DNA of 64,000 nucleotides from a virus, in the IMG/VR virus record IMGVR_UViG_3300042090_000199, positions 1 through 64,000 of that record, one strand, 5' to 3'. The notes beneath the pieces are model-generated. The model saw only the letters and a list, made by a program, of their open reading frames with translations, did no database searches and had not been told where the DNA came from. Of the stretch, positions 2,495-29,912 are shown piece after piece; positions within the stretch are counted from its first letter, which is position 1; each line of letters begins with the position of its first letter. The position numbers were made by a program, and so were the translations under genes.

Positions 2495-2507
2495 TATTCA
2501 CGGTGGT

Positions 2508-2550: not shown

Positions 2551-2566
2551 GGAAGGGAGCCAAGAA

Positions 2567-3042: not shown

Positions 3043-3052
3043 CGCCCACGAT

Positions 3053-4461: not shown

Positions 4462-4502
4462 AAAAAGAAACAACGCTTGCTCTTGGGTACCTTCCTTGCA
4501 GT

Positions 4503-4559
4503 CCGTGCTCCAGTTATCCACCCCGTTCTGGAGCACGGTCTGGAGGGAAGATCCTCCAG
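4503..4559 (+). other. Twin leader hairpins with DnaA-box-like loop
   Basis: An 11-bp stem (4503-4513 with 4528-4538) has a 14-base loop containing TTATCCACC, which resembles a DnaA box. A 7-bp stem (4540-4546 with 4553-4559) follows, then the ribosome site GAAGGGAG of the gene at 4575. The region 4330-4574 holds only these hairpins and P1. Confidence 0.55.
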
Positions 4560-4574
4560 AAGGGAGCAAGCAAG

Positions 4575-4769
4575 ATGTCCAAGCCGTTGAAGCATCACAG
4601 CAGGGAGTTCCTGGATAAGGCTCCGTGGGAGACGCTTGAGAAGATCATGGACAATCCAGACGAGTACGTCGATGGTACTGTTCAGGTGGCCTGCCAGGTC
4701 TTCGAGCAGCGTCGGGCGGACGAGATGGCTTCGTCCGACGCGATCGCCGCATTCTTCGAGAACCTGTAA
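4575..4769 (+). CDS. Small helical protein (64 aa)
   Basis: ATG 4575 follows AGAAGGGAGCAAGCAAG and is the first gene after promoter P1. The 64-residue product is helical and acidic. No motif is recognised. Confidence 0.7.
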   Translation: MSKPLKHHSREFLDKAPWETLEKIMDNPDEYVDGTVQVACQVFEQRRADEMASSDAIAAFFENL

Positions 4770-4780
4770 CGGAGGGTAAC

Positions 4781-5128
4781 ATGCCTCTTCACACGCAGGT
4801 TATCAGGGACGGCGAATCGGTAAAGATTCCATGGGGAGACTTCCACGTCGCGGCTATGGCTCTAGCGGCCGCCTTCGATGCTAAGGAAGGCCCGCTAGGA
4901 GACATGACCAAGATCTATGCGGACGAACTTCACGTTCATCCGCACATGCCGTATCCGATCACGCGAGGCGTGGCCTTCATGGTAACTACCTACGGTGCAC
5001 TCGCACAGACGCCGCTGAACGCGGGCAGCTACGTCCTCAAGCACGGTCACTCGTTCATCGATCTCGTCGATGGCGAGATCTTCGAACTCCTTCCCGGAGA
5101 CGAACTAATCATGTATCGAGGCTTCTGA
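4781..5128 (+). CDS. Protein of unknown function (115 aa)
   Basis: ATG 4781 follows CGGAGGGTAAC. The 115-residue product is soluble with mixed alpha/beta character and a His-containing HVHPHM segment. No family is recognised. The stop overlaps the next ATG by one base (TGATG). Confidence 0.7.
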   Translation: MPLHTQVIRDGESVKIPWGDFHVAAMALAAAFDAKEGPLGDMTKIYADELHVHPHMPYPITRGVAFMVTTYGALAQTPLNAGSYVLKHGHSFIDLVDGEIFELLPGDELIMYRGF

Positions 5129-5502
5129 TGGACGAGTTCGAGGAAGCCAAGGAATTCCTGGATAAGCTCTGGACCGAACACGTCGAGGAAGCAAAGCAGC
5201 ACGAACTCAATGTTCCGAAGCTGGATCCTATGGGACGTATCCAGGACTTCTTCTTGTATGTCACAAACATCTCAACGTACTGCTACATCCACAACAGAAA
5301 CGAGATAGCAAGACCTGACGGAAGGGTGTGCTTCGAATGCGAGCACAGCTACCCGAACGACGAGGCTATCAGGGAAGCTTTCCAGAAGATGCTTAAGCAA
5401 GTCGGTGAGGAAGGTCAGATTCTTCCGAACTCGATCGTGGTGCTAAAAGGTGACACGGTCGATGATATCGGGTTCTGCCCGCTCTGTCTTCACGACTGGT
5501 GA
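5128..5502 (+). CDS. Zinc-binding-type protein (124 aa)
   Basis: ATG 5128 overlaps the upstream stop. The 124-residue product has CYIH at about 53-56, CFEC at about 70-73 and a closing CPLCLH at about 117-122. Together these make a plausible Cys/His metal site. The N-terminal half is helical. Function unknown. Confidence 0.7.
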   Translation: MDEFEEAKEFLDKLWTEHVEEAKQHELNVPKLDPMGRIQDFFLYVTNISTYCYIHNRNEIARPDGRVCFECEHSYPNDEAIREAFQKMLKQVGEEGQILPNSIVVLKGDTVDDIGFCPLCLHDW

Positions 5503-5510
5503 TGGACATT

Positions 5511-5577
5511 CGTGCTGAATCGCCCAGCTTCAGCACGGATGCCTGACACTAGGTCAGGTACACCGGTAACGTCCGGT
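5511..5577 (+). other. Three consecutive hairpins, first with GCCCAG loop
   Basis: Hairpin 1 has a 9-bp stem (5511-5519 with 5529-5537) and loop TCGCCCAGC. Hairpin 2 is CCTGAC/GTCAGG (5542-5547 with 5553-5558). Hairpin 3 is ACCGG/CCGGT (5562-5566 with 5573-5577). They fill the spacer before the gene at 5600. Confidence 0.65.
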
Positions 5578-5599
5578 CAAGGGTCGAGGAGACCAAAAA

Positions 5600-5920
5600 A
5601 TGAAGAGCATCGGCAACGACACCGTGCAGGCGATGAAGCCAGCTCCGAAGGGCATTCGTCTGCCCGCCACGACCGATCTTTTCGTCTTCATCGCCGAGAA
5701 GACGGCCCAGGTCAATCAGGCGTGGAACGACGCCGACGACATCAAGATGTTCTGGAGCTCGCTCGACGAGCTCGGGTTCATCAAGAAGATCGACGGCGAC
5801 GACGAGAAGTACGGCGAGCGCAAGTTCGTCGGCTTCCCTGTGAGGAACAACGAGTTCCGCATCTCGGTCGTCCGCAAGGGCAGCGTCGTGTCGATCGACC
5901 TGCGCGAGTGGTACCTGTAG
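5600..5920 (+). CDS. Protein of unknown function (106 aa)
   Basis: ATG 5600 follows CGAGGAGACC. The 106-residue product has GC-rich, regular codons, suggesting high expression. It is an alpha/beta soluble protein with no recognised motif. A three-hairpin leader precedes it. Confidence 0.75.
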   Translation: MKSIGNDTVQAMKPAPKGIRLPATTDLFVFIAEKTAQVNQAWNDADDIKMFWSSLDELGFIKKIDGDDEKYGERKFVGFPVRNNEFRISVVRKGSVVSIDLREWYL

Positions 5921-13791: not shown

Positions 13792-14829
13792 ATGATTGGG
13801 AAGAAGAGGAAGCTGGTAGTAGGTGCGATCATCGCGGTCGTCATCGCTATCGTCGCTGCCGTCATCGGTTCCAACCGAGCAACTGCAGCGCCTATCTACG
13901 GCGATACGTCGGCCACGGTGAGTCCTTTCACCTTGACCGATCACGGACCTCACGTGAGTACGCCGACGCCTCTGACGACGCCAGTGACCGTCCTGCCTGC
14001 GAGCATCCAGTTTCAGGCGATCGGGACGCCGCCCTTCCTCGGGGCGGATACCTGGCAGGTCAGTCCGGCGACGCTGGATGGCTACGCACTCCAGATCAAC
14101 AGCGCAGGTCTCCTGACCCTGACGCCGATCAGTGGAGCGACGCAGACCATCGGGGCTGGTGCTATCGCGGTTTCGGCGACTGACGTCCTCGGCGCGACGG
14201 GGCTGGATACCGTCACTATCGGGTTCGTCGACGCCACACACTCCAGCCTGACACAGGTGTCACACAACCTGCTGAACAACATCTTCGGCCTGAACAACAA
14301 CGCCAACGGCCAGGTCGACTTCTCACTGGTACCGACGCCCGCTCCGGCCGTAACCTGGTCGGCAGGGAACCTGCCCAACGGCACGGCGATGGCATCGAAC
14401 GGTATCCTGACGGCGACGAGCTCGATCCCCGGCGCCTACAATGAGGTGCCTGTGAGGGCTACAGACAGTGGCGGGGCAACAGCCGTCGCGGTCGTGGACC
14501 TGACTATCAAGGGTGCGATCGTCGGTAACGATACGCCGAGGCTGTCGCATGGGTATGCGGTTGCGGGAATCAACAGTTCCCGTGAGAACGTGTTCTACGA
14601 GCAGGACGGGTCGCCGTCCTGGGACCACTTCACCATCGTGGGCCCCGGCGCGATCAACGGTCACCAGGGTTGGGTTCACGGCCAGCTCGGACTGAACGAA
14701 GCGGTCTACGGAGGCCTGCTGGCGGGTCACGGTTACACCGTGTTCTACCAGCCGGTGACCGGACCAGGCTCGACCACGCCGTGGCCGGGTGCACACTGGG
14801 GCTACGTCTACTTCATTAGCGGACGATAG
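13792..14829 (+). CDS. Membrane-anchored surface protein with Ig-like repeats (345 aa)
   Basis: ATG 13792 follows GAAAGGAACCCGATCC. The N-terminus is MIGKKRKLVV plus about 17 hydrophobic residues, a signal anchor or signal peptide ending near RATAAP. The exported part contains Ig/cadherin-like segments: GILTATSSIPGAYNEVPVRATD resembles the closing half of a He_PIG-type domain. A C-terminal Trp/Gly-rich domain ends near 345. The gene sits in the early arm, not with virion genes, so it may act on the infected cell surface. Binding partner unknown. Confidence 0.7.
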   Translation: MIGKKRKLVVGAIIAVVIAIVAAVIGSNRATAAPIYGDTSATVSPFTLTDHGPHVSTPTPLTTPVTVLPASIQFQAIGTPPFLGADTWQVSPATLDGYALQINSAGLLTLTPISGATQTIGAGAIAVSATDVLGATGLDTVTIGFVDATHSSLTQVSHNLLNNIFGLNNNANGQVDFSLVPTPAPAVTWSAGNLPNGTAMASNGILTATSSIPGAYNEVPVRATDSGGATAVAVVDLTIKGAIVGNDTPRLSHGYAVAGINSSRENVFYEQDGSPSWDHFTIVGPGAINGHQGWVHGQLGLNEAVYGGLLAGHGYTVFYQPVTGPGSTTPWPGAHWGYVYFISGR

Positions 14830-14906
14830 TTACCTGAACGTCCTGTCCGAGCCGTACGGCGCGGGAACGCCTTACGAGGCGGCTCGGGCAGGGCCTTGAG
14901 GTAACT
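14828..14906 (+). other. Long hairpin of the GTCCTG family (member 1)
   Basis: An outer 8-bp stem (14828-14835 with 14899-14906) and an inner 13-bp stem (14842-14854 with 14880-14892) enclose 25 bases. The 5' side reads GAACGTCCTG and the 3' side CAGGGCCTTGAGG. The outer stem starts within the stop codon of the preceding gene. The next hairpin repeats both motifs. Confidence 0.65.
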
Positions 14907-14914
14907 ATGGCAGT

Positions 14915-14965
14915 TGCCTTGAATGTCCTGTTCAGTTCTGGGTGCTGAACAGGGCTTTGAGGGCA
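14915..14965 (+). other. Long hairpin of the GTCCTG family (member 2)
   Basis: CCTGTTCAG (14927-14935) pairs with CTGAACAGG (14945-14953). TGCC (14915-14918) pairs with GGCA (14962-14965), and the side sequences GAATGTCCTG and CAGGGCTTTGAGG match member 1. It ends just before the ribosome site of the gene at 14989. Confidence 0.65.
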
Positions 14966-14988
14966 TTCTACAAAGGGAGGAACAAATA

Positions 14989-15781: not shown

Positions 15782-15811
15782 TTGCAAGCCTCTTGAGGCT
15801 GCAGCTATAAT
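15782..15811 (+). promoter_or_regulatory. Promoter P4 (TTGCAA-18-TATAAT)
   Basis: TTGCAA (15782-15787), 18 bases, then TATAAT (15806-15811). AGCCTC directly precedes the -35 box, as at P5 and P7. A 7-bp AAAATTC/GAATTTT hairpin lies upstream near 15752. It would drive the gene at 15862 and the structured region after it. Confidence 0.8.
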
Positions 15812-15861: not shown

Positions 15862-16473
15862 ATGGCAAGCAGGCGTAGAGCCGCTCAACAGCCTGTGTCG
15901 GCGGACGAGCAAGAAGGGACAAACGAGATGACCGAAACTGACTTCGACGAAACCGTCGCTGTCGACGAAAAGCCTGAGCCGACCTACGACGAGCTGAAGG
16001 CTCGCGTCGTCGAGCTCGAGGAGCAGCTGGCCGCGGCAACCAAGTCGAAGACCAAGAAGGACAAGCCGGAGAAGCGCAAGCCTGATCTTCCCGACGGCTA
16101 TATCTCCCCTGTAGCCTTCCGTCACAAGCTGGTGGAGCTCGGCCTGGCCAACGAGAGCATGAGCCCTGTGCAGGTTTACGGGCTGGTACGCAAGGCCTCG
16201 TCCAACGGCATGCCTGTCAAGCACTTCGACAAGGCCGGCAACGTGTACGACGAGATCCAGACGCACCCCGTCACCAACGAGACGCTCACGCGGCCCGGCC
16301 TCATCGAGGAAGACGCTCTCAAGTGGTGGAAGGACCGTCCGAAGCGTCAGCCTGGCCAGCCCAAGCCGAAGACCGAAGGTGAGTCTGCGGACGCCTCCGA
16401 GGACTCGGATCTCGAGGACGCCGCCGCGGCCGAAGACCTTGCGGCGGACGAGGATTTTGACGAGGCCGAGTAG
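15862..16473 (+). CDS. Acidic-tailed HTH-like protein (203 aa)
   Basis: ATG 15862 follows AACAGGAGCTGATC. Layout: acidic N-terminus (20-45), a coiled-coil segment (about 46-65, EELEARVVELEEQL type), a Lys-rich stretch, a globular core (about 80-155) with ISPVAFRHKLVELGL and SPVQVYGLVRKASSNG, then a long Asp/Glu/Ala tail. The core resembles the HTH-like segment of the gene at 7774. It is GC-rich and has its own promoter, so it is probably abundant. DNA binding is likely; its precise role is unknown. Confidence 0.75.
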   Translation: MASRRRAAQQPVSADEQEGTNEMTETDFDETVAVDEKPEPTYDELKARVVELEEQLAAATKSKTKKDKPEKRKPDLPDGYISPVAFRHKLVELGLANESMSPVQVYGLVRKASSNGMPVKHFDKAGNVYDEIQTHPVTNETLTRPGLIEEDALKWWKDRPKRQPGQPKPKTEGESADASEDSDLEDAAAAEDLAADEDFDEAE

Positions 16474-16744
16474 CAAACGTCCTGTCTGAGTGTTCCTAGG
16501 AATGGCGAGGCTCCGCTCAGACAGGATCCAAACGTCCTGTTCGGACCTGGGGTTTACAGCGGGCACCGAACAGGACCCAGACACCCTGATCTAGAGTCCC
16601 TAATAGGGTTCGTCCCAGTGGTAGGTATCTAGGTCAGGGCCCGAACGTCCTGCTCGGGAAGTGGCAACGATCCGTCTAGGAGCTCCTAGGCGACGACCAC
16701 ACGCCCGAGCAGGACTCAAACGTCCAGCTAGGCGCGTCTAGGAC
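16474..16744 (+). repeat. Array of five AACGTCCTG hairpins
   Basis: Four long hairpins follow each other: A 16480-16490 with 16516-16526 (11 bp), B 16534-16544 with 16566-16576 (11 bp), C 16584-16594 with 16629-16639 (11 bp, one G-T) and D 16647-16658 with 16704-16715 (12 bp). A short fifth (E) is at 16722-16744. Three begin AACGTCCTG, and the linkers resemble TC(C)AAACG. C and D contain inner hairpins. No T-runs follow. Members at 14,828 and 14,915 belong to the same family. Function unknown; repeated small RNAs or processing sites are possible. Confidence 0.65.
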
Positions 16745-16896
16745 ACCAAGGTTTCGATAGCTCGACCATGGTGTGGAAAGAAGCGGAAGCAGGACGAAAA
16801 GGCGAAGGGGACAACGCAGGTGAAGCGCAGACCAGCAGGCGCACCAGTCACACGTCCTGCCGAGTTGAACCACACCTCTGGTGTCCCCTTCGTCGC

Positions 16897-16975
16897 GTCG
16901 GGACGACACATGTGGGTGTCAGCACCGAGTACGCGCTCGGAACGTGTTGCACTGGTTCGAATCCAGGTCCCGGCT
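16897..16975 (+). tRNA. tRNA-like element, non-canonical
   Basis: A 7-bp acceptor-like stem (16897-16903 with 16968-16974, one G-T) encloses a D-like arm (16906-16909 with 16916-16919). It also encloses a 5-bp central stem CCGAG/CTCGG with a 6-base loop, and a T-arm with the hallmark GGTTCGAATCC (16954-16964). The central loop is one base short and the D loop lacks the usual final A, so I cannot assign an anticodon. It may be a decayed tRNA or a tRNA-shaped RNA. Confidence 0.35.
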
Positions 16976-16977
16976 CG

Positions 16978-17009
16978 AGGCTCCGTCGTTCTCCCGTTCG
17001 ACGGAGCCT
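16978..17009 (+). other. Perfect 11-bp hairpin after the tRNA-like element
   Basis: AGGCTCCGTCG (16978-16988) pairs with CGACGGAGCCT (16999-17009) around TTCTCCCGTT. It begins three bases after the tRNA-like element and might end or process its transcript. Confidence 0.6.
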
Positions 17010-17078
17010 GCCTAGGTCGACCATCCGCAAAGGGAGTACACACACGAGGATGCTTCGGTCAGACTCCACCTAGGCATT

Positions 17079-17419
17079 ACGCCGGCCCGGCGGCGTGCGT
17101 CTTGCTTCACCCTCCAGTGGCAGACGCGAAGGGTTCACCCCACTCACCGGGACCCACAATCGTAGCTGGCAGGAACACTCAACCTCGAGGACTCTTGAGT
17201 AAGGTCCGAAGCCGAGAGCACGTTTGCCTTATTGGCCCGTGCGCTAATATCGAGCCAGCCACTCAATCACCGGGCTGTCAGATGCGTAGTCTGAACAGCT
17301 GGCGGCCCGGCCATAACCCTGGGAGCACCTCCTATGGGCGGTCGATCGCGACAAGGCAAGCCGGGCCTGCTCTGCTGATCCTGCCCATGCGTGGCGGTGC
17401 AGCGGGAGGTGCTCCCAGG
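17079..17419 (+). ncRNA. Candidate structured non-coding RNA region
   Basis: Hairpins follow almost without gap: 17079-17096, 17098-17126, 17177-17200, 17215-17245 and 17270-17310 (CCGGGC/GCCCGG with an inner bulged stem). The last is a perfect 15-bp stem 17318-17332 with 17405-17419 enclosing a 72-base branched interior that has ATGGGC/GCCCAT and GTCG/CGAC stems. The one long frame across it (16820-17500) has the composition of a tRNA shadow and no ribosome site. The region lies downstream of P4 and next to the tRNA-like element, a setting shared by large phage RNAs such as GOLLD and ROOL. Identity unproven. Confidence 0.45.
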
Positions 17420-17499
17420 CCGACTGAAGGCTGCTGGATGTGTAGGCTTAATCTACAGCATAGAGTACCTGACCAGTGTGACGTAAGAGAGGAGCGGTA

Positions 17500-17883
17500 A
17501 TGCCTACAGCTGTTGACGCTCGTCTGTACGAGCAGTGCTGCAAGGTCTACGACGCCATGAACGAAGCCGCACAGACCCGTAACGCCGACGGAGTCGCTGT
17601 CTATCGAGGTTACACGACCTACCTTCTTGAGCAGTGCGGCTACTCGATCAGCATTTACACTCCGGTCATGCGTAGACTTCGATCCATGGGTTGCGTTCAG
17701 CAAAAGGTCCGCGGAGGCCGTGGTATTCCTAGCGAGTGGCTAGTCATTAAGCCTCCGACGCGTGCGGCCTTTGCTCAGGGTGGGCAGCGATGGATGGCAC
17801 AACAGGAGCGCATTTCGGATTTGGAAGCTCGTGTCGAGATTCTCGAGGCACGCCTGGAAGAAGTCCCAGAAGAAGCCGTATAA
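17500..17883 (+). CDS. Winged-helix-type protein with coiled-coil tail (127 aa)
   Basis: ATG 17500 follows AGAGAGGAGCGGTA. Residues about 8-85 read as a winged helix (VYDAMNEAAQ, YLLEQCGYSISIYTPVMRRL, then QQKVRGGRGIPSEW as the wing). Residues 103-125 form a short coiled coil (RISDLEARVEILEARLEE). It probably binds DNA as a dimer and may regulate transcription. It is the first gene after the structured region. Confidence 0.7.
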   Translation: MPTAVDARLYEQCCKVYDAMNEAAQTRNADGVAVYRGYTTYLLEQCGYSISIYTPVMRRLRSMGCVQQKVRGGRGIPSEWLVIKPPTRAAFAQGGQRWMAQQERISDLEARVEILEARLEEVPEEAV

Positions 17884-20780: not shown

Positions 20781-21066
20781 AGAAGACTTTCAGGCGTTCT
20801 GGGAAAAGAAGACAGGAACCTCCAATAGACATCCTAGAGAAGTCCTCATACGAGGTTACCAGTTTTACGATCTTCTTCTAGAGGCCTTCACAGCAGGGCG
20901 TGAAAGTGTCGAACCGGTTATCAATCCTGAATGGTGCAAGGAGATAGTTACCTTGCACAGGTCCAACTCGAACTTCTGGACCATACCAGAACTAGCCAAG
21001 CTATTCCAACTTCCAGAAGACCAAGTCAGGGAGATCCTGAATGCCAAGCAAGACGCTACTGGTTAA
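20770..21066 (+). CDS. Helical protein with HTH-like end (98 aa)
   Basis: ATG 20770 follows CGGAGGCGAAG. The 98-residue product is helical. Its last 25 residues (WTIPELAKLFQLPEDQVREIL) fit a helix-turn-helix, so DNA binding is possible. It overlaps queE by 26 bases. Confidence 0.7.
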   Translation: MSAEEDFQAFWEKKTGTSNRHPREVLIRGYQFYDLLLEAFTAGRESVEPVINPEWCKEIVTLHRSNSNFWTIPELAKLFQLPEDQVREILNAKQDATG

Positions 21067-21829
21067 CGAAATCTTCGGTCCAACGATACAGGGTGAAGGT
21101 CCTGCAATGGGCCGACGCTGTGCTTTCGTTCGGCTAGCAATCTGCCCGTTGCGCTGCAAGTGGTGCGACACTCCTTACACGTGGGCCTTCTCGAACCCTA
21201 TTGCCGCGCACCATCAGAGTCACAAGGTGTACGACTATACCGAGGAAGTTCGCGAGATGACCGTAGGCGACGTTGTCAGCCAGGCTATCTTCTGTGCATC
21301 AGGTGCTAACCTCGTAGTCCTATCAGGTGGTGAACCGCTAGCTCAGGTCCCTGTCCCGCTACAGGATCCTGGAATCAAGCTGGAAGAGTCTTACGGCGAC
21401 CCTGTAGGGCTCCTGGTAAATACGCTGCTAGAGGCAGGTATCGAGACGCATATCGAGACTGCAGGCGTTCGTAGACCTAGCCCGTTCTTGCACGAAGCTG
21501 TAGGTGGATATGTCGTTTCGCCTAAGCTGGTCACTAGTGGTAACAGTCTCAAGGTAAGACGAGACCTAGACGTCCTGAGGTTCTTCGCGGACACGAATAA
21601 GGCGTTCTTCAAGTTCGTGATTACGGAACCGAACGACTTCTCCGAGATCAGCCAGATAGCAGCCCTATGTAGTATCCCGCCGTGGCGCATATGGGTAATG
21701 CCGGAAGGCACGACGCCCAAAGCTATCCAGGAAAAGATGACGTTCGTAGCAGACCGTGGAATTCGAGCAGGCTACAACGTCTCGTCACGTCTACACATCC
21801 TGGCTTGGGGCGACCAGAGAGCACACTGA
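21041..21829 (+). CDS. queE: 7-carboxy-7-deazaguanine synthase QueE (262 aa)
   Basis: ATG 21041 lies within the end of the previous gene, after CAGGGAGATCCTGA. This radical SAM enzyme converts 6-carboxytetrahydropterin to 7-carboxy-7-deazaguanine, the ring contraction step to preQ0. FGPTIQGEG (12-20) is the QueE lead motif, C35-x3-C39-x2-C42 binds the 4Fe-4S cluster, and LSGGEP (94-99) contacts SAM. Length fits the family. It acts with FolE, QueD and QueC encoded downstream. The next gene starts within its stop codon. Confidence 0.93.
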   Translation: MPSKTLLVNEIFGPTIQGEGPAMGRRCAFVRLAICPLRCKWCDTPYTWAFSNPIAAHHQSHKVYDYTEEVREMTVGDVVSQAIFCASGANLVVLSGGEPLAQVPVPLQDPGIKLEESYGDPVGLLVNTLLEAGIETHIETAGVRRPSPFLHEAVGGYVVSPKLVTSGNSLKVRRDLDVLRFFADTNKAFFKFVITEPNDFSEISQIAALCSIPPWRIWVMPEGTTPKAIQEKMTFVADRGIRAGYNVSSRLHILAWGDQRAH

Positions 21830-22137
21830 TGTCTTACTCTTCCAAAGAACTATGCACTCGTGCGCGCATTACGAAACGCCAGATGGATAACTGGTATCGA
21901 ATGGGATGGCTAGAACCATTCGAACGTCGAGAGCAAGCAGGATCTGGAACGCCTCTGGAGTGGCCAACTCGGACCTTCGAGAAGGCTAAGCTAATGTCAC
22001 GTCTTATTCGTGCAGGGTTCAAGGTTCAGGAAGCTAACGAAATAGCTGACAGACTTATGAATGACACTACCGCGCGTGCGGATTCAATGCACGATATCGA
22101 CCTAGGCGATAATATACGACTCAGGCTGTTCGTATAG
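21829..22137 (+). CDS. MerR-like HTH protein (102 aa)
   Basis: ATG 21829 overlaps the queE stop (TGATG). Residues 6-70 (ELCTRARITKRQMDNWYRMGWLEP..., then LMSRLIRAGF) follow the winged-helix pattern of MerR-type domains. There is no long dimer helix or effector domain. It probably binds DNA, perhaps as a regulator or excisionase-like architectural protein. Confidence 0.7.
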   Translation: MSYSSKELCTRARITKRQMDNWYRMGWLEPFERREQAGSGTPLEWPTRTFEKAKLMSRLIRAGFKVQEANEIADRLMNDTTARADSMHDIDLGDNIRLRLFV

Positions 22138-22150
22138 GAGAGAAGTAATC

Positions 22151-22354
22151 ATGATGTGTCACCCTTGCAGGCAGGCTGGCGAAGTACTCAAGCTGACTCC
22201 GAGCGAAGAGCATCCTGATCCAGAGTCAGAGGCTATAGAACTACACCGGATGTGCCAAGAATCGAACTGTACTTGTCAGCACCGCACCGACAAGGACATT
22301 ATCAATCGAGAAAGGATACCTAGCAGTGACTCACAGCTACCAGGGACCGCCTGA
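22151..22354 (+). CDS. Cys-rich small protein (67 aa)
   Basis: ATG 22151 follows AGGAGAGAAGTAATC. Cys occur as CHPC (3-6) and near the middle as MCQESNCTC, a likely metal site. It overlaps the next gene by 29 bases. Function unknown. Confidence 0.65.
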   Translation: MMCHPCRQAGEVLKLTPSEEHPDPESEAIELHRMCQESNCTCQHRTDKDIINRERIPSSDSQLPGTA

Positions 22355-22871
22355 AGGGTTCCAGTTCAACAATGTCCCTTACCCACCACTGGCTGGAACC
22401 TGGGGAGTAGCGCACGGTACCGGACCTTTCGCTAGCGTCATCCGTACGGCCACGCAGAGCTGGGCAGGTCATGCTGTCTTGTACGTAGGAGACGGACTAG
22501 CAGTCGAGGCTCGCTGGCCAAAGGTCAAGATGGACGCAGCTCCTCGCGAAGACGTCGTCTGGGCTAACGGGCAGCCTCTGACGAGTGAACAACGAATGAG
22601 AGCTGTCACAGCTGCTCACCTTCTCATAGGCGCGGGCTACGACATCGCTATCTACCCAGCTCTTGTCGCAGCTCTGTTCAAGGCCTCAATCACCAAGGAC
22701 ATCGAACCGTTGTTCAACAGCGACAGATGGTGGGACTGCAGTGGCCTCGTCGAACACTGCGATGTCGTAGCCGGAGCAGCGATGTTCTCTGGTACAGTCG
22801 GTAGCGAGCACTTCGTTACGCCTGCCATGATGATGAACCTCGGCGTCCAGAAGGGGTGGTTCACAAAGTGA
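22326..22871 (+). CDS. Permuted papain-fold (NlpC/P60-like) hydrolase (181 aa)
   Basis: GTG 22326 follows GAAAGGATACCTAGCA. H49 in AGHAVLYVGDGLAVEA precedes C138 in WWDCSGLV, the reverse of the usual order. This indicates the circularly permuted papain-like branch of the NlpC/P60 superfamily (YiiX/YaeF type). Such enzymes hydrolyse amide or ester bonds. No signal peptide is present, so it acts inside the cell, and its early-arm position argues against a lysin. The substrate is unknown. Confidence 0.7.
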   Translation: MTHSYQGPPEGFQFNNVPYPPLAGTWGVAHGTGPFASVIRTATQSWAGHAVLYVGDGLAVEARWPKVKMDAAPREDVVWANGQPLTSEQRMRAVTAAHLLIGAGYDIAIYPALVAALFKASITKDIEPLFNSDRWWDCSGLVEHCDVVAGAAMFSGTVGSEHFVTPAMMMNLGVQKGWFTK

Positions 22872-23077
22872 ACTTGCCACAGTACCGTAGAGCGCTACGT
22901 CAGGCTCACGAGGAGTTCGCAGAACAGGTAGCGGCTATACGCGACAAGTTCGTCGAAGACATGCGTGAGGCAGGCGATCGACTAGAGAAGGCTCTAATGT
23001 CTGCTCACTCGCAGTTCATGGAAGACCCTGAAGAGACAGCCGAACATGCTCCAAAGCGCCTTAGGGAGCCCCACTGA
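22868..23077 (+). CDS. Helical coiled-coil protein (69 aa)
   Basis: GTG 22868 overlaps the upstream stop (GTGA). The 69-residue product is a long charged helix (QAHEEFAEQVAAIRDKFVEDMRE) with heptad spacing. Function unknown. Confidence 0.65.
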   Translation: MNLPQYRRALRQAHEEFAEQVAAIRDKFVEDMREAGDRLEKALMSAHSQFMEDPEETAEHAPKRLREPH

Positions 23078-23091
23078 TATACGAAGAAGGC

Positions 23092-23520
23092 TTGACACCA
23101 AGTCAGATCTTCGATCGTACCATGAGGGACTTTGTCGAAGCAATGACTAGAGAGCCTACGGAAATGCCAGAACGACACTACCATGTAGACGAGCTGCTTG
23201 AACAAGACGAAGTATGGCAATCTGGTGATCGAGAGATCCTTCGTATCGTCGACATGAAAGACGATCATCTAGTCAACCTGAAAGCGTTTCTGCTCAAGCA
23301 TGCCTTCAGGTATCAATCAGCCGTTCTTCAGTCTATGTTCACCTTTGCCTCTACGCTCGGAGGCGAGATGGCGCAGGATGCTATGGAGTCAGAGATCAGT
23401 CACGTAGCTGACAAACATGCGCTTCTCTGGATGGAAGAACGTCCTCTATACAAAGCAGTGCAAAACGAAATCTTCAGACGGCAGGGATATAGCGTCTGCC
23501 GCATCATAGAACAGGAGTAG
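23092..23520 (+). CDS. Helical protein of unknown function (142 aa)
   Basis: TTG 23092 follows GAAGAAGGC and is the best available start; no ATG lies near. The 142-residue product is acidic and helical with no recognised motif. The next gene starts two bases after its stop. Confidence 0.65.
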   Translation: MTPSQIFDRTMRDFVEAMTREPTEMPERHYHVDELLEQDEVWQSGDREILRIVDMKDDHLVNLKAFLLKHAFRYQSAVLQSMFTFASTLGGEMAQDAMESEISHVADKHALLWMEERPLYKAVQNEIFRRQGYSVCRIIEQE

Positions 23521-23522
23521 CA

Positions 23523-24314
23523 ATGCTATACCGAACTAGGACAGTTCTCGTCGAGACGGAACCAGGCACTGGAGAAGAGGAAGGCTTCACCAAGATCTCG
23601 ATCGGAGAATGCTGGGCATTTATCCCGAACGCCTTGTTCGAAGTTCTGTTCGAGGAGCTAGGTCCAGGACTCCAAGCAGACATAGGCAGTTCTGAAGGCA
23701 TCGTAGACGCAGCAGGCTTCGACCTCAGCTGGTGCAAGAGCGCCGAGCCCCGCAATCTGATCAACGAGATGCTGGCAATGGAAGCCATCACGACCGACAA
23801 CACCATCGACGGCCCGTCGTGGATGTTCAAGCCCTACCCGATCAGCATCTTCGGCAAGCTTCTTACCGCTGTTATCGAAGACATGGGCTGGATATGGAAT
23901 CCTGGAGTAGACGAGTCAGCCCCTAAGTTCCTCGAAGTCGGCTGTGGACCAGGTACGAAGCTAGTCGTAGCCGAGAAGGTATTCGGTCTCGATGCAGGAG
24001 GTTTCGACTACAACCCCGACTATGTGCGAGACGCGAACGAGCTACTGCAGTCTAAAGGCTGTCAGGGTGGTGCGTTCATAGCGGACGCTCGCACAGTAAC
24101 CACCCCCTATAGTCTCGCCGACGTGATATGGCTCAATCGTCCGTTCGTTCATCTCGAGATGACAAGACGTCTGGAAGAGACAGTTCTCAACCGTATGCAC
24201 CCAGGCGCATACATCATTCTCGGTAACTACGCTACCGATCCGAAAGAGCTCGGGTGGCAAGTCATCGCCGAAGACAAGATGGCGATCGTGCTCAGGAAGC
24301 CTGTACTCAAATAA
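23523..24314 (+). CDS. SAM-dependent methyltransferase-like protein (263 aa)
   Basis: ATG 23523 follows ACAGGAGTAGCA. Residues 136-145 (FLEVGCGPGT) form motif I of class I methyltransferases. DAGGFDYNPDYV supplies the acidic ribose contact, and GGAFIADARTV plus DVIWLNRP match motifs II-III. The first 110 residues are an extra domain I do not recognise. The catalytic motif NPPY for base methylation is absent, so the target is probably not adenine N6. It sits among the 7-deazaguanine genes, but a link is unproven. Confidence 0.75.
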   Translation: MLYRTRTVLVETEPGTGEEEGFTKISIGECWAFIPNALFEVLFEELGPGLQADIGSSEGIVDAAGFDLSWCKSAEPRNLINEMLAMEAITTDNTIDGPSWMFKPYPISIFGKLLTAVIEDMGWIWNPGVDESAPKFLEVGCGPGTKLVVAEKVFGLDAGGFDYNPDYVRDANELLQSKGCQGGAFIADARTVTTPYSLADVIWLNRPFVHLEMTRRLEETVLNRMHPGAYIILGNYATDPKELGWQVIAEDKMAIVLRKPVLK

Positions 24315-24334
24315 CCGATCAGGAGAAATAGAAC

Positions 24335-24652
24335 ATGAAACTCAACAAGCGCGACCTGACCTGGGCTGGCGTCGCCAGTACTGGCATCGCAGCGGCAGCA
24401 ATCATCGCCGGCTGCGCCAGCGGAAACCCTGTCGCCGATGACCTGCAGAACGTATCACCGTCATATCCGAACTACGTTGGGCTCTACCTCAACGTCGACG
24501 GCCATCCGAACATCGTCGAGATCTGTATCAACGGTGTAGGCTTCGCCACGACGACGCGCGAAGCCGCAGGCGCGATCACGCGCATCCCTGAATGGGATGC
24601 CTTCTGTCAGACGCAAGAAGGTAAGCAGGCTACCCAGAACGGTCAGCCTTAA
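24335..24652 (+). CDS. Lipoprotein (105 aa)
   Basis: ATG 24335 follows CAGGAGAAATAGAAC. MKLNKRDL plus a hydrophobic stretch ends in the lipobox AIIAGC, so Cys about 27 would be lipidated and the remaining 79 residues displayed outside the membrane. The mature part has two further Cys. A lipoprotein made by an infected cell may block superinfection; this is inference. Confidence 0.75.
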   Translation: MKLNKRDLTWAGVASTGIAAAAIIAGCASGNPVADDLQNVSPSYPNYVGLYLNVDGHPNIVEICINGVGFATTTREAAGAITRIPEWDAFCQTQEGKQATQNGQP

Positions 24653-24653
24653 C

Positions 24654-24899
24654 ATGGCTGTTCATCATAACAGGCTAGTTCCGTCTTCTCCAGAGCCTCC
24701 AGCTCCGATCCGAGGTGGCACGTTCTTCTACTGCCCTTGGGGTGAGAGGAGAAAAAGCGACTGGGGCTCAATTTCGTTTCTAGCCTGCGGCATCGTCCAC
24801 GCTGGATGGGCAACCGGCACGAGATTCCGAACATGCAAGGCTTACCGGCAGCACTGGCGAAGGTATCACTCGGAGGTGCAGCATGACGATGTCCGTTAA
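24654..24899 (+). CDS. Small protein of unknown function (81 aa)
   Basis: ATG 24654 is one base after the previous stop. The 81-residue product has FFYCPWGER, a later CGIVHAGW and HWRRYH, so a Cys/His metal site is possible. It overlaps the next gene by 17 bases. Confidence 0.65.
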   Translation: MAVHHNRLVPSSPEPPAPIRGGTFFYCPWGERRKSDWGSISFLACGIVHAGWATGTRFRTCKAYRQHWRRYHSEVQHDDVR

Positions 24900-25113
24900 G
24901 ACAATGGAGTTCGACACAATCATCGTCATCTACGACTACACGAGCCAGACCTTGACTATCAAGTCAAAGTCTGCTCCAGAGACTAAACCAGCTACTAGGC
25001 ACAATCTTCAACCCGAAGGCGAGATCAAGCTGCCTAGCTTCAGTATTCAGGAGCTGCGAGAAGGTCTCGAAGGCATCGGTCAGCAAGTCCCATCAGGTCG
25101 ACGTTTATCTTAA
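24883..25113 (+). CDS. Small protein of unknown function (76 aa)
   Basis: ATG 24883 follows CGGAGGTGCAGC. The 76-residue product is beta-rich at the N-terminus (MEFDTIIVIYDYTSQTLTI) with a polar tail. No family is recognised. Confidence 0.7.
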   Translation: MTMSVKTMEFDTIIVIYDYTSQTLTIKSKSAPETKPATRHNLQPEGEIKLPSFSIQELREGLEGIGQQVPSGRRLS

Positions 25114-25122
25114 TCAGCAACG

Positions 25123-25150
25123 AGGCCCGCCGGAACACGCCGGCGGGCCT
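25123..25150 (+). terminator. 11-bp GC hairpin
   Basis: AGGCCCGCCGG (25123-25133) pairs perfectly with CCGGCGGGCCT (25140-25150) around AACACG. It lies 9 bases after a stop and just before the next ribosome site. There is no T-run, so it may protect or process the mRNA instead of ending it. Confidence 0.55.
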
Positions 25151-25165
25151 GATAAGGAGAGTATC

Positions 25166-25480
25166 ATGGAAATGAGCCGTTGGACGCTAGTTGTAGAGTT
25201 CGACTCTATCCAGGAAATGATAGCCGAAGATGACTACGAAGGAGGCCTAGCTGAAGCGGAAGAGTTCTACCAGTACATACGTGAGTACTGGAACGGCATG
25301 GATGAAGATTGGCTCAACGAAGACACGAACCTGACAGGTGACACAGTAACAGTCACCTTCCCAGTTCTGGATGATATCGAAGAGCCGCTTCGATGGCTCA
25401 CTATGAAGTCTGTACCCAAGAAGATCACCTTGTCTCGTAACGATACTCGAACAGGAGGACCTGCTAGGCATGAAGACTAG
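25166..25480 (+). CDS. Acidic protein of unknown function (104 aa)
   Basis: ATG 25166 follows TAAGGAGAGTATC. The 104-residue product is very acidic and alpha/beta (MEMSRWTLVVEFDSI...). The pattern is like a small ferredoxin-like fold, but no family is assigned. It overlaps the next gene by 11 bases. Confidence 0.65.
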   Translation: MEMSRWTLVVEFDSIQEMIAEDDYEGGLAEAEEFYQYIREYWNGMDEDWLNEDTNLTGDTVTVTFPVLDDIEEPLRWLTMKSVPKKITLSRNDTRTGGPARHED

Positions 25481-25595
25481 GGACCGGGAGCTTCTCGTCT
25501 ACTTGATATGTATACTAGTCCTGACAGGACTAGTTGTCTTTGCTATAGTGCATGCTGTTGCAACCAACTGCGAGTACAACGCTTGTGGTCATTAG
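25470..25595 (+). CDS. Single-pass membrane mini-protein (41 aa)
   Basis: ATG 25470 follows CAGGAGGACCTGCTAGGC. The 41-residue product has a charged start (MKTRDREL), one membrane helix and a short CEYNACGH end. Function unknown. Confidence 0.6.
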   Translation: MKTRDRELLVYLICILVLTGLVVFAIVHAVATNCEYNACGH

Positions 25596-25607
25596 TTGAC
25601 TAGTGTA

Positions 25608-25638
25608 TTAAGGGAAATTTCAGAATAATTTCCTTTAA
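25608..25638 (+). other. AT-rich hairpin upstream of P6
   Basis: An 11-bp stem (25608-25618 with 25628-25638, one G-T) contains GGGAAA/TTTCC. Similar AT-rich inverted repeats lie upstream of P2 and P4. It may be a weak terminator or a regulator site next to the promoter. Confidence 0.45.
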
Positions 25639-25645
25639 GGCTCCA

Positions 25646-25675
25646 TTGTTGTTCCCTCGATTCTTGTAGTATAAT
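25646..25675 (+). promoter_or_regulatory. Promoter P6 (TTGTTG-18-TATAAT)
   Basis: TTGTTG (25646-25651), 18 bases, then TATAAT (25670-25675). It heads the queC operon that continues through polA. Confidence 0.75.
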
Positions 25676-25713
25676 TATATTATACGAAAAGCGAGAATCC
25701 AGGAGCAAACATT

Positions 25714-26421
25714 ATGGGCGGTATAGCAATCGTGTCCGGCGGGCTTGACAGCACCACGATGCTGTACGATCTTGTGAATAGCGGAACAGACGTAGACGTA
25801 GTGTCCTTCAACTACGGGCAGCGTCACATCAGGGAACTGATTCAGGCAAGAGCTATCACTTCAGCTCTTCGTCTCCATCACCTGATCATAGACATTCCGT
25901 CCTATGGACGCTCGATCGTGTCCAGCGCGAGCTCTCTGGTAGACCCTAACGCTGAGGTCCCGGAAGGCAGCTACGACGCCGAAAGCATGAAAGCGACTGT
26001 TGTCCCGAACCGTAATATGGTCATGATAGCTATGGCGTCGGGAGTAGCAATCTCTACCAAGGCCCAGTTTGTCGCTACGGCAGTCCATGCAGGTGACCAC
26101 GCGATCTACCCCGACTGTAGGCCTGAGTTTATCAGGAGCCTAGAGACGGCTATCAAGATCGGTAACGAAGGGTTCATTGACCCTGGGTTCGAAATCAGGA
26201 CCCCTTACATCTACAGGACTAAGGCCGATATCGCCAGGCGAGCAGGCGAACTTCGTGTTCCTGTCGATCTCACGTGGTCGTGCTATAAGGGCGGAACTTC
26301 CCACTGCGGACGATGCGGGACCTGCGTAGAACGTCTCGAAGCCTTTCACGAGGCAGACGTGTTCGACCCTACGGTGTACATGGACACCGAATTCTGGAAG
26401 ACAGCGGTCGCGGCTAAGTAA
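25714..26421 (+). CDS. queC: 7-cyano-7-deazaguanine synthase QueC (235 aa)
   Basis: ATG 25714 is the first gene after P6, with CCAGGAGCAAAC as ribosome site. The ATP-dependent enzyme converts 7-carboxy-7-deazaguanine and ammonia to preQ0. SGGLDS (8-13) is the pyrophosphatase P-loop. C190, C198, C201 and C204 form the zinc site. No glutamine amidotransferase domain is fused, unlike phages that make archaeosine-type DNA bases. Length matches the family. Confidence 0.94.
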   Translation: MGGIAIVSGGLDSTTMLYDLVNSGTDVDVVSFNYGQRHIRELIQARAITSALRLHHLIIDIPSYGRSIVSSASSLVDPNAEVPEGSYDAESMKATVVPNRNMVMIAMASGVAISTKAQFVATAVHAGDHAIYPDCRPEFIRSLETAIKIGNEGFIDPGFEIRTPYIYRTKADIARRAGELRVPVDLTWSCYKGGTSHCGRCGTCVERLEAFHEADVFDPTVYMDTEFWKTAVAAK

Positions 26422-26435
26422 CGGCGGCAATCTCA

Positions 26436-26876
26436 ATGGACGAACAGCTGCCAGGGTCCTGCTCTTGTGCGATAGACTGTTTCCCGCCAACGACGTCTAT
26501 CATCAACTGCGCAGAGCATGGTATGCCTCAGAACCTGGGGGACACTGAATACCCGGGGACTATGCCTAAGTTCGGGCTACCGATTCACGGTTTCGGAGAA
26601 ACTGGTTACGTAGCGCCTCTGTACGATCAGCAGCAGATAGAAGAGGCCGCCCAACTAGCAAAGGCTATTGGCTACAAGGTAGGACGTCCTGTCCAGATAT
26701 GCTCTCTAGCCGACCTTAAGAGGATCGCAGCTTCCACAAGTCCTGGAAGTCCTCCTCCGAGTCTTCAGTATCATAAGCCTGGCTGCATCTATAGCACTGG
26801 TCCGCACCCTGGTGACTGTTATGTCGAGCCGCTGCCAGGGCCTAGCAGGATTCATGATGGAGACCCCAAGCAATGA
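26436..26876 (+). CDS. Protein of unknown function (146 aa)
   Basis: ATG 26436 follows the queC stop by 14 bases. The 146-residue product has Cys/His in the first 35 residues (CSCAIDC, CAEHG) and a closing HKPGCIYSTGPHPGDC, with low-complexity Pro/Ser between. Two loosely spaced metal sites are possible. It overlaps the nuclease gene by four bases. Confidence 0.65.
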   Translation: MDEQLPGSCSCAIDCFPPTTSIINCAEHGMPQNLGDTEYPGTMPKFGLPIHGFGETGYVAPLYDQQQIEEAAQLAKAIGYKVGRPVQICSLADLKRIAASTSPGSPPPSLQYHKPGCIYSTGPHPGDCYVEPLPGPSRIHDGDPKQ

Positions 26877-28039
26877 GTGAACTCGTCCACGAGATCCATT
26901 CGTCTCAGCTTCGTGGTTACCGTACATGCAGACGTATGTGGGACTGGCGCTATCGTGACAACTGGGAGCCGATCAAGCGTCCGGCGCCTCTCGAAGATGG
27001 TACTGTCTGGCATAAGGCTCTAGAAGTCTTGTACAACCCTGAGACTTGGCGCGTTCCTCTAGCGGACTTGCACAGGTTTGCTCAGGAAGCTCTTATCGCC
27101 GAAGCTGATCGGCAACGTACGGATTATCTCCATCGTGCAGGCAAGTACCAGTTGGACGAAGAGGAAGCTCTCGACTATGGCGAGCGTCTCAGTATCCTAC
27201 GGAGCATGTTGGTCAAGCTGTGTCGTAGTCTCGACCGTTCGGCCTATAAGCCGCTATTCGTAGAGCGTGAATTCGAGTGTCCTGTTGTTGACGACGCAGG
27301 CAACCAGCTTCACTGTGTCTGCAAGGAATGCATCGCACAGTACCGAAAGCATAACGAGTTTCCGGATTCATACGACATTACAGGACAGTTTACAGGTCTT
27401 CCAGTTGTATTCAGCTGTCGCATCGATGCAGTCTTCGAAGACCGTGAAGGATTCGTCTTCGTAACCGACCACAAGTCAGCCGCCAGCTTGTACAAAGAAG
27501 ACTCAGTAATCCCAGAGCTCGAAGACCAGCTTCCTTCGTACCTGTGGTGCGTTCGTCAGAACGGTTACCCGGCTACCGGCATTATCCTCAATCAGTTCCG
27601 AAAGGCTTACCCGAAGCCTCCTAAGAGACTGCAGACTCCTGGACAGGGACGCTGGTACAGCGTCAATAAGCAGCAGCTCACGGACTACCACACAGCACGA
27701 CAAGTCTTCGAACGCAAGGACAACAGAGCTTATCGTCACGGCTTGTACAACGACTACCTAGAGTGGCTCAAGGCTCACGGTCCAGAATATTCCAGGCAGT
27801 TCGTGATCCTCAAGACTAACGAACACCTGGAAGAAGCTGGCCGTAATATACTGCTACAAGCTAAGGAGGTGATCGGCGAGCCAGCTATCTACAAGAACGC
27901 GAATCAACCGAACTGTCAGTCATGTTCATTCCAGCTACCCTGTCTTACAGCTTCTGGCGGTCTAGACCCGACAGGAGACCTTGAGGCAGGCTTCGTCAAG
28001 TCAGAACCGTACTATATACAGAGACGGCGGCAGTCATGA
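26873..28039 (+). CDS. Cas4/RecB-like PD-(D/E)XK exonuclease with Fe-S site (388 aa)
   Basis: ATG 26873 overlaps the upstream stop (ATGA). C19 and the C-terminal C348, C351 and C357 (NCQSCSFQLPC) have the spacing of the Cas4/AddB iron-sulfur site. The nuclease core includes SCRIDAVFED and FVFVTDHKSA, the D...DxK of PD-(D/E)XK enzymes. A CxxC insert near 145 (CVCKECI) is extra. Such phage nucleases process DNA ends in recombination with a Sak4-type ATPase, which is the next gene and is coupled by overlap. Confidence 0.87.
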   Translation: MSELVHEIHSSQLRGYRTCRRMWDWRYRDNWEPIKRPAPLEDGTVWHKALEVLYNPETWRVPLADLHRFAQEALIAEADRQRTDYLHRAGKYQLDEEEALDYGERLSILRSMLVKLCRSLDRSAYKPLFVEREFECPVVDDAGNQLHCVCKECIAQYRKHNEFPDSYDITGQFTGLPVVFSCRIDAVFEDREGFVFVTDHKSAASLYKEDSVIPELEDQLPSYLWCVRQNGYPATGIILNQFRKAYPKPPKRLQTPGQGRWYSVNKQQLTDYHTARQVFERKDNRAYRHGLYNDYLEWLKAHGPEYSRQFVILKTNEHLEEAGRNILLQAKEVIGEPAIYKNANQPNCQSCSFQLPCLTASGGLDPTGDLEAGFVKSEPYYIQRRRQS

Positions 28040-28872
28040 GCGACGTTAGCACCGCACTAGTCCCTACTATGACAGACTTCGGAGGCGTTCCCATAGCGCC
28101 TATCCGAGACAAGCCACAGTACATGAAGGCTCTGGTCTACGGTAAGCCAGGCGTCGGCAAGACAACTCTGGTAGCCCAGGCTCAGAAGATCCCAGGCATG
28201 TCACCTGTGCTCTTCATGACACCGGATCAGGCGGAGGCAGACACGCTGCGTAAGGAAGCTCCAGACGCGCAGGTAGCCTTCATCAGGAAGTTCTCACAGT
28301 TCGACCAGATCTACAAGGCAGCAGCTAAGCTGTCTGCCGCCGGTACGCCTATTCCGTTCAAGACCTTCGTGGTCGACACAGGTACCGAAGCGCAGAAGCT
28401 ATCCATGAACGACATCATGACAGCTCTTCTTATCTCGGGTCGACCTGGAGGCGGAGAGGTTAACTTCGACGTCCCGAGCATGCGTGAGTGGGGCGAATCG
28501 ATTAGCCAGATGCGGACGCTCGTTCGGCACTTCCGCGATCTACCGGTCAACTTCATCATGAACTGTCACGAAGCGGAAGCCAAGGACAACCGTTCCATCA
28601 ACTGGATCGTTCCAGACCTGCCCGGCAAGCTCAAGAACCAGGTCTGCGGTATGTTCAGTAACGTGTTCTACCTCGGAGTAGAACGTACAACAGTGACAGA
28701 AGGCCGAAGCAAGATCGTCGAAGCCGAACGTCGCATTCTCTTGACAGGCCTTACGGAAGGCTACCTAGCTAAGTCAAGAACCGGACTCTTCGAGAGGGTT
28801 GTTCAGGAACCTAAACTCGAAGACCTCTATAAGGCAATTATCAGTATGCCTGCAGAGGAGACCGCCCGATAG
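28036..28872 (+). CDS. Sak4-like RecA-fold ATPase (278 aa)
   Basis: ATG 28036 overlaps the nuclease stop. YGKPGVGKTT (35-44) is the Walker A and FVVDTG (111-116) the Walker B of a RecA-core protein. Short length and gene context (nuclease before, binding protein after) fit the Sak4 group of phage single-strand annealing ATPases. It likely promotes strand annealing or exchange during replication and repair. Confidence 0.83.
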   Translation: MSDVSTALVPTMTDFGGVPIAPIRDKPQYMKALVYGKPGVGKTTLVAQAQKIPGMSPVLFMTPDQAEADTLRKEAPDAQVAFIRKFSQFDQIYKAAAKLSAAGTPIPFKTFVVDTGTEAQKLSMNDIMTALLISGRPGGGEVNFDVPSMREWGESISQMRTLVRHFRDLPVNFIMNCHEAEAKDNRSINWIVPDLPGKLKNQVCGMFSNVFYLGVERTTVTEGRSKIVEAERRILLTGLTEGYLAKSRTGLFERVVQEPKLEDLYKAIISMPAEETAR

Positions 28873-28908
28873 GGCAAAGTAACTAGTACAGAAAGAGAAA
28901 ACGGAACT

Positions 28909-29427
28909 ATGGGTATCAAGGTAAGTCTCAGCGACCAGGAAGCTTCGTCAGGCGACCGCAGCTTCGACCCGATGCCGATCGGCAAGTACCACGCCGTGAT
29001 CCACGCCGTGGAGCTGGCGGAGTCAGAATCGGATAACAACCCTGGCAAGCCGATGCTCAACTTCGAGTTCGTCGTTCAGGACACGCCGGGACGCTGGCAG
29101 GAGTACGCCAACAGGCACGACTTCGTCAACGCGTGCCTCTGGGAAGGCGCGATGTACACCATCGTCGGCATCCTCAAGGCACTGCCTTCCCAGAAGGGCA
29201 ACAAGAACGCCTACGAGGACAACCTCGACTCTGACGGCAATCTCGAAGTCCCGACCGAGCCAGAGTACTACGAGGGTCAGGAGCTCTTCATCCGGCGCGG
29301 CAAGAACAAGCGGCAGGTCGAGAAGTTCCCTGACATGCCCGAGCGCCACATCGAGGTCCGCGGCTACGGGATGTTCTCCGAAGACCAGCTCGGGTCTCCG
29401 AAGAGCGAGACCGACGTTCCGTTCTAG
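28909..29427 (+). CDS. Probable single-stranded-DNA-binding protein, DUF669-like (172 aa)
   Basis: ATG 28909 follows AAGAGAAAACGGAACT. FDPMPIGKYHAVIHAVELAESES followed by LNFEFVVQDTPG and an acidic PF end resembles DUF669/phage SSB-like OB-fold proteins. The acidic C-terminus ends in DVPF, like the partner-binding tip of SSBs. GC-rich codons suggest high expression. It follows the Sak4-like gene, consistent with a recombination module. Confidence 0.75.
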   Translation: MGIKVSLSDQEASSGDRSFDPMPIGKYHAVIHAVELAESESDNNPGKPMLNFEFVVQDTPGRWQEYANRHDFVNACLWEGAMYTIVGILKALPSQKGNKNAYEDNLDSDGNLEVPTEPEYYEGQELFIRRGKNKRQVEKFPDMPERHIEVRGYGMFSEDQLGSPKSETDVPF

Positions 29428-29436
29428 CTAGACCAT

Positions 29437-29523
29437 GAAGATGAAGGTTCGAGTCGCGGCGTAAGAGACTGGTACCTGTAAGAGAGCGACTAGGGCCAGA
29501 GGCCTTCATCTTCAGCACCAGGG
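29437..29523 (+). other. Branched hairpin between binding-protein gene and queD block
   Basis: GAAGATGAAGG (29437-29447) pairs perfectly with CCTTCATCTTC (29513-29523), enclosing 65 bases with an inner AGTCGC/GCGACT stem (29452-29457 with 29486-29491). It ends eight bases before the GTG at 29531, after which the ribosome site overlaps. It could be a regulatory leader. Confidence 0.6.
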
Positions 29524-29530
29524 AGACAGA

Positions 29531-29911
29531 GTGCCTAATTACGACTTCAGTTCCAGCTTTCCTCATCCACAGTGGAGTATCTGCGGCATGGAGCTTCCTG
29601 ACGGAAGAGTCCGTATTATTGCTAGCAAGGAGCTCAGTTATGCGGAACTCCGATACGAAGCGGGGTTCCACCAAGTGTTCGACGGAATCTTCCCGATTCA
29701 TGCAGGTATCACGCATACGGATCTGACACTGACGACACATATGCGCACCTGTGTCCTTATCGACGGACCCGACTACGCTACCTGTATCAAGCATCTATTC
29801 GAGACTTGGAAGCCTGACGACCTTAAGCGCAAGGCTATCGGTCCGAAGCAACTCGGTATCGAAGGTTCTCCTACCGGCCGTACACCCACGCCTCCTCCGA
29901 TCGGATACTAG
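29531..29911 (+). CDS. Protein of unknown function (126 aa)
   Basis: GTG 29531 follows CAGGGAGACAGA. The 126-residue product begins beta-rich (SICGMELPDGRVRIIASKEL) and ends in a Pro-rich tail. It lies directly before queD, and no preQ0-pathway family fits. Function unknown. Confidence 0.65.
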   Translation: MPNYDFSSSFPHPQWSICGMELPDGRVRIIASKELSYAELRYEAGFHQVFDGIFPIHAGITHTDLTLTTHMRTCVLIDGPDYATCIKHLFETWKPDDLKRKAIGPKQLGIEGSPTGRTPTPPPIGY

Positions 29912-29912
29912 C

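Follow-up and report, generated by a model that had tools for sequence, protein, structure and literature searches.

A gap of 1,026 nt between two phage genes, A and B, is structured and non-coding over its whole length (16474–17499), a conclusion in which we have high confidence, and the pattern of paired substitutions in related phages shows, at the level of sequence comparison, that selection acts on its base pairing. Taken as a whole, the gap is best explained as encoding a discrete, multi-domain structural RNA, an explanation that we consider about evenly poised. It contains a tRNA-like element that is very likely non-decoding.

The DNA analysed here, referred to as the window, is a stretch of 64,000 nt from the 77.7-kb IMG/VR virus record IMGVR_UViG_3300042090_000199, whose phage genes include a phage-type helicase and a QueE-like gene. 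The gap runs exactly from the stop of gene A to the start of gene B (Table 1). Homologues of gene A were found in L003, L009, L011–L013 and L019, and relatives of gene B were present in viral contigs by profile search; gene B gave no family match in PDB or Pfam. Near the gap, the sole promoter-like site on the + strand is the one before gene A. The same holds for L009, whose gene A follows a similar site (TATAAT, 18-nt spacer). Neither a separate promoter nor a strong terminator was seen for the gap. The promoter-like site is the probable start of the transcript containing the RNA and, since it stands alone and precedes gene A, gene A, the RNA and gene B probably form one transcript. Elsewhere in the window, 21041–31033 holds a QueE-like gene (PHROGs) and QueC-like, QueD-like and FolE-like genes (judged by eye), which suggests 7-deazaguanine synthesis. 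At 32526–35960 a 1,144-aa frame appears, by eye, to encode a uracil-DNA-glycosylase-type domain with an intein-like insert, and what was likewise judged to be a family A DNA polymerase comes next.

Table 1. Features of the gap and its flanks in the window
Feature	Position	Strand	Description
Promoter-like site	15782..15811	+	TTGCAA, 18 nt, TATAAT; upstream of gene A; consensus scan 10/12
Gene A	15862..16473	+	ORF, 203 aa; upstream neighbour in all relatives
Tandem hairpin array	16479..16796	+	Five units; repeat family D1/D2, inverted repeats
Long imperfect hairpin	16801..16894	+	Arms 16803–16839 / 16856–16892; z −4.6; ends just before tRNA-like element
tRNA-like element	16897..16975	+	79 nt; 7-bp acceptor, 5-bp D-arm, arm in anticodon place, T-arm
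11-bp hairpin	16978..17009	+	Directly 3′ of tRNA-like element; z −6.3; 3 double compensatory changes in L003
Middle domain	17010..17261	+	RNAalifold consensus of window and L003; conserved strand GAGUAAGGUCCGAAG
Penultimate hairpin	17270..17310	+	12 pairs, 2 doubly changed across three phages; conserved loop GCGUA...CAG
Last stem-loop	17318..17419	+	15-bp outer stem around junction, strand GGUYGAUCGCG; z −4.6
Gene B	17500..17883	+	127 aa; downstream neighbour in L003, L009 and others

An earlier reading made from the letters alone (the sequence-only reading) had described 16897–17419 as almost entirely hairpins. The structure is there, but its extent was understated: it starts at 16479, five bases past the stop of gene A, and the degree of structure is higher still over the first 417 nt than over the rest. 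The segment 16890–17430 folds at −245.7 kcal/mol against −219.5 ± 6.6 kcal/mol for shuffled versions (z = −4.0; 0 of 100 shuffles as low), which bears out the expectation, set as a test in that reading, of folding below shuffled sequence. The segment 16474–16890 folds more strongly (z = −7.0). The perfect 15-bp stem that had been noticed was located with its arms at 17318–17332 and 17405–17419 and exactly 72 nt between them. In the relatives, z was −7.1 for the 5′ part of L003 and −5.7 for L009. Taken singly, most hairpins have z of −4 to −7; for two pieces from the middle and for the tRNA-like element it is only about −2.4. In a 200-nt scan of the window, with a window-wide mean z of −0.8, 16601–16900 is extreme (−5.5, −4.8), and the scores within 16900–17400 (−1.0 to −1.4) are near that average. 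Since this latter part is only mildly stable, folding energy alone is weak evidence there and comparative evidence carries it. Two other regions, 2401–3100 and 5401–5800, were also unusually stable in the scan and lie in or near coding sequence. Long inverted repeats cluster here too: 5 of the 13 in the 64 kb whose arms reach 12 bp or more (no more than one G-U) sit in a 940-nt stretch at this locus (P ∼2e-4 by simulation).

The five array units (16479–16527, 16534–16576, 16584–16639, 16647–16715 and 16720–16796) each have z of −4.2 to −7.1, and four of them have in common the base ACGUCC[UA]G...CAGGA[CU] or GGAC. L003 has three units versus five in the window. L003 retains the long imperfect hairpin that follows; 3 changes in it are one-sided. 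Hairpins of the ACGUCCUG family occur also after the gene ending at 14829, after other genes in L003's record and after one in L009's; judged by sequence, this is a dispersed intercistronic hairpin family. At 14834–14968, directly after the stop of the gene at 13792–14829, stand two strong hairpins that share the base GAA[CU]GUCCUG...CAGGGC with the array at 16479–16796.

The consensus fold of the window and L003 over 16640–17425 has 219 pairs, of which 187 are unchanged, 17 carry one-sided changes that still pair and 15 are double compensatory changes. Displaced controls, in which the partner was slid by 1–3 bases, gave 0–2 double changes. The lack of broken pairs in this consensus arises partly by construction, as the fold was computed from both sequences, and the divergent third sequence, L009, is a stronger test. 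A covariance model of the 3′ domain (R1), built from the window and L003 only, finds L009:5946–6085, at the same gene position, with 54.6 bits (E 5.6e-12); in eleven other related records it finds nothing. In the alignment of the three sequences 99.2% of cells are paired and six pairs are doubly changed, versus 0–1 in slid versions, figures that are favoured by the fitting of the alignment to R1. Thus, the covariation in related phages that had been proposed as a check is present, with the 15 double changes in L003 and the six pairs compensated with L009, and compensatory changes in two relatives, together with the covariance-model match, support the claim that the region is a large structured RNA which includes a tRNA-like element.

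The conserved 3′ domain (17262–17424), which has a three-way junction, is the part kept farthest among the relatives. In the outer and inner stems of the last stem-loop, 27 pairs in all, 4 are doubly changed across the three phages and none is broken. The loop sequences GCGUA...CAG and GGUYGAUCGCG stay constant while the surrounding stems change, and the former, that of the penultimate hairpin, is kept in L009. The stems of the middle domain lie at 17011–17074, 17078–17097 and 17162–17262; no homologue of this domain was detectable in L009.

The long frame at 16820–17500 had been set aside as a non-gene lacking a ribosome site. The second part does not hold: a possible Shine-Dalgarno sequence (AAGGGG in the window, GGAGGGG in L003) lies ∼9 nt before the GTG. 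The frame is moreover open in both phages, the indels between them preserve it, and its stop overlaps the ATG of gene B. A fast-evolving protein, with the folding secondary, would explain these features, and the open frame in L003, the possible Shine-Dalgarno sequence and the stop overlap were the grounds for putting it through coding tests. These were negative, so the non-gene status stands. Substitutions at codon positions 1/2/3 number 32/44/45, with no third-position excess, compared to 18/13/40 in gene A. The dN/dS of 0.64–0.67 is like that of stop-rich frames (0.66–0.71), the values for genes A and B being 0.23 and 0.07. GC at codon position 2 is 0.62, versus 0.37–0.53 in nine other genes, the codon score is negative, and Pfam gave no match for the frame. 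In L009, the conserved strand falls in another reading frame. We therefore regard a protein as extremely improbable.

The tRNA-like element was found where the sequence-only reading had put it, with a canonical T-arm (CUGG-UUCGAAU-CCAG) and other loops irregular. The features of a tRNA fold are all present (acceptor, D-arm with GG in its loop, T-arm with a UUCRANN loop) with their pairing kept; a 3′ CCA is not encoded. The anticodon place is taken by CCGAG-UACGCG-CUCGG, which in both the window and L003 gives a 5-bp stem with a 6-nt loop or a 6-bp stem with a 4-nt loop. Because there is no 7-nt anticodon loop, the element should not decode normally. The description of the region as lying next to a tRNA fails, as ARAGORN found no tRNA gene in the window and the element itself lacks a normal anticodon loop. 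In L003, 22 of 22 pairs are kept with 3 double changes, although the element's covariation alone is not clearly better than shuffles (53/500). A permissive Rfam scan gave tRNA-Sec with 17.1 bits at 16897–16974; the L003 element scored 17.1 bits with the Rfam tRNA model, under the cut-off. A model trained on the elements of the window and L003 (R2) was searched against 413 kb, and its five best matches beyond the training sequences were all tRNA genes or tRNA-like elements (5/5, E 0.04–0.84). R2 detected no such element in L009, where a candidate at 5773–5850 has only an acceptor and a T-arm and is not claimed.

Altered anticodon arms are found in two further phages. The tRNA-like element of L027 has CCGG-GACG-CCGG in this place (39.1 bits with the tRNA model). 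In L019, 2764–2853 is a tRNA (46.9 bits) with a UACG-capped hairpin replacing the anticodon arm, adjoined by normal tRNA-Ala and tRNA-Met genes. Thus, this phage group seems to carry several tRNA-shaped RNAs that are predicted not to decode normally. Tests of other contigs gave tRNA-like elements with an unusual anticodon arm at L011 12742–12810 and L013 11938–12006 (22.6 and 22.3 bits, under the cut-off); both lie off the A–B locus, that of L013 just after a QueE-like gene.

Viral contigs with the gap flanked by genes A and B are L002, L003 and L009. L002, compared in part, is identical over 20 kb and is possibly the same phage as the window. L003 is 92% identical in gene B and ∼80% in the RNA region; L009 is ∼69% identical in gene B and 74% in the helicase. 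In the collections searched, the RNA is thus known in three distinct phage types, two of them close, with only the 3′ domain demonstrably shared with L009, and the comparison shows that its position between genes A and B is the same in all three of these divergent phages. L011–L013 were rejected as carriers: the flanking genes are the same, but the gap is ∼190 nt and has no unusual fold. L027 has between genes A and B a long hairpin, a tRNA-like element and long hairpins (z = −5.4), a similar order of parts, and because significant sequence similarity is lacking it is not claimed as a homologue; the strand common to the window and L027 (GUAAGGUCCGAAG / GUAAGAGUCGAAG) may be chance. GenBank phages gave no match by DNA or by gene A and B protein, and neither the gene B profile nor a 3′-domain pattern gave a relative in ∼85,000 bacterial and archaeal genomes, where the longest chance stem was 11 bp versus 15–17 in real members. 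Three DNA patterns returned nothing from viral contigs beyond those already known.

If a structural RNA is encoded, we envisage that gene A, the RNA and gene B would be co-transcribed from the promoter before gene A. On general knowledge, the tRNA-like shape predicts recognition by RNase P and the long hairpins predict cutting by RNase III, and the two enzymes together would cut the RNA free from between two mRNAs. Once free, it would have a structural or scaffolding role, in which the conserved loops of the 3′ domain might form the active surface and tRNA-binding factors would use the tRNA-like element as a handle. Release as a discrete molecule has, in our estimate, roughly an even chance, and action in trans a little under that. 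In its fullest form, which is tentative and on balance unlikely, the proposal is of a new class among the large phage RNAs, with no relation to GOLLD and ROOL. A tRNA mimic that does not decode would be one of the molecule's working domains (for release by RNase P and as the handle), the 5′ part would grow and shrink by tandem hairpin copies, and related phages would more than once have turned tRNA-gene loci into structural RNA.

The gap might instead be a cis-acting intercistronic region, with hairpins that protect the 3′ end of the gene A mRNA, a 3′ domain that is the leader of gene B and affects its translation or stability, a tRNA-like element that is a mere cleavage site, and no free-acting RNA. 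That the region fills exactly the space from the stop of A to the start of B, with no promoter of its own and no strong terminator seen, fits this, and the recurrence of the array's hairpin family after other genes keeps it alive. Yet a length of ∼1 kb, a 3′ domain built on a three-way junction and the presence of a tRNA-like element exceed the needs of an operon spacer, the most conserved part stops ∼75 nt short of the start of gene B, and no known riboswitch or leader model in Rfam matches, so that we judge a purely cis-acting region possible though rather unlikely. The inverted repeats, dense and long as they are, could also form a DNA-level element, an origin or packaging site, but the stems tolerate G-U pairs, the conserved loops and the tRNA fold exist on one strand only, and the region shows no skew extreme as for a replication origin; we consider this highly improbable.

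Two further explanations start from the tRNA-like element. Since L019, L015, L017 and L078–L080, all distant relatives, have tRNA genes upstream of gene B (in L019 as a cluster between genes A and B), the gap could be the degenerate remains of such a cluster. Decay would break stems, whereas the acceptor and D-arm are kept by paired changes, and the larger part of the region does not derive from tRNA; this explanation is already disfavoured and we hold it to be decidedly improbable. A phage Y RNA, a tRNA mimic that would modulate RNA decay as the partner of a Ro60/Rsr protein, is very improbable. Bacterial Y RNAs are tRNA mimics and have been reported in mycobacteriophages, as cited in PMC12282133. 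The record of L018 (G008 4473–5513), a distant relative with many tRNA genes, encodes a TROVE/Ro60-type protein. However, searches of the records for the window, L003, L009 and L027 gave no TROVE match, and the YrlA model (RF02553) found nothing in the window's record or L003. The records may be incomplete, and a Ro protein could come from the host or from a missing part of the genome.

A structural RNA of this kind would suggest that the evolution of large RNAs connected with tRNA handling has happened repeatedly in phages, here with the tRNA neighbour turned into a non-decoding domain. GOLLD and ROOL, large phage RNAs beside tRNA genes, have no known function, and an unrelated RNA similar in size and setting would stand next to them. 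The 79-nt tRNA-like element offers a simple experimental entry point.

At gathering thresholds, Rfam gave no match over the gap, and the permissive scan (E up to 10) added only miRNA-like chance matches to the tRNA-Sec match above. No group I intron or riboswitch was matched by Rfam, and no tmRNA by ARAGORN or Rfam. The sequence-only reading had raised identity with GOLLD or ROOL and named the model searches that would decide. GOLLD (RF02032) had no match in the permissive scan or in a direct model search of the window's record, L003 and L009, and neither kind of search matched ROOL (RF03087), its direct search being run without a positive control; the suggested identity was thus not confirmed. 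With no match to the GOLLD, ROOL and YrlA models and no Ro gene, the RNA was filed as a new family. In our judgement this family of large structured phage RNA is both new and rare, GOLLD/ROOL-like in kind without being a member of either.

GOLLD assembles into an RNA-only multimer, a cage. It is a large structured phage RNA often found beside tRNA genes, with a conserved 3′ region, a variable 5′ region and tRNAs sometimes inside a linker region, and ROOL is a large RNA of phages and prophages near tRNA islands (PMC12286853). The gap resembles GOLLD in size, phage context, link to tRNA and the combination of a conserved 3′ with a variable 5′ part, and ROOL in size, phage context and link to tRNAs. 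It differs from GOLLD in that its tRNA-like element is predicted not to decode and the window has no tRNA genes; the carrier is a phage, and it is in distant relatives that tRNA genes occupy the equivalent locus. With Y RNA and YrlA it shares the character of a tRNA-mimicking non-coding RNA, but it is far longer and has a separate conserved 3′ domain. In MALAT1, a long non-coding transcript, the tRNA-like element (mascRNA) is an RNase P site, and this non-homologous case may serve as a model for how the element in the gap works.
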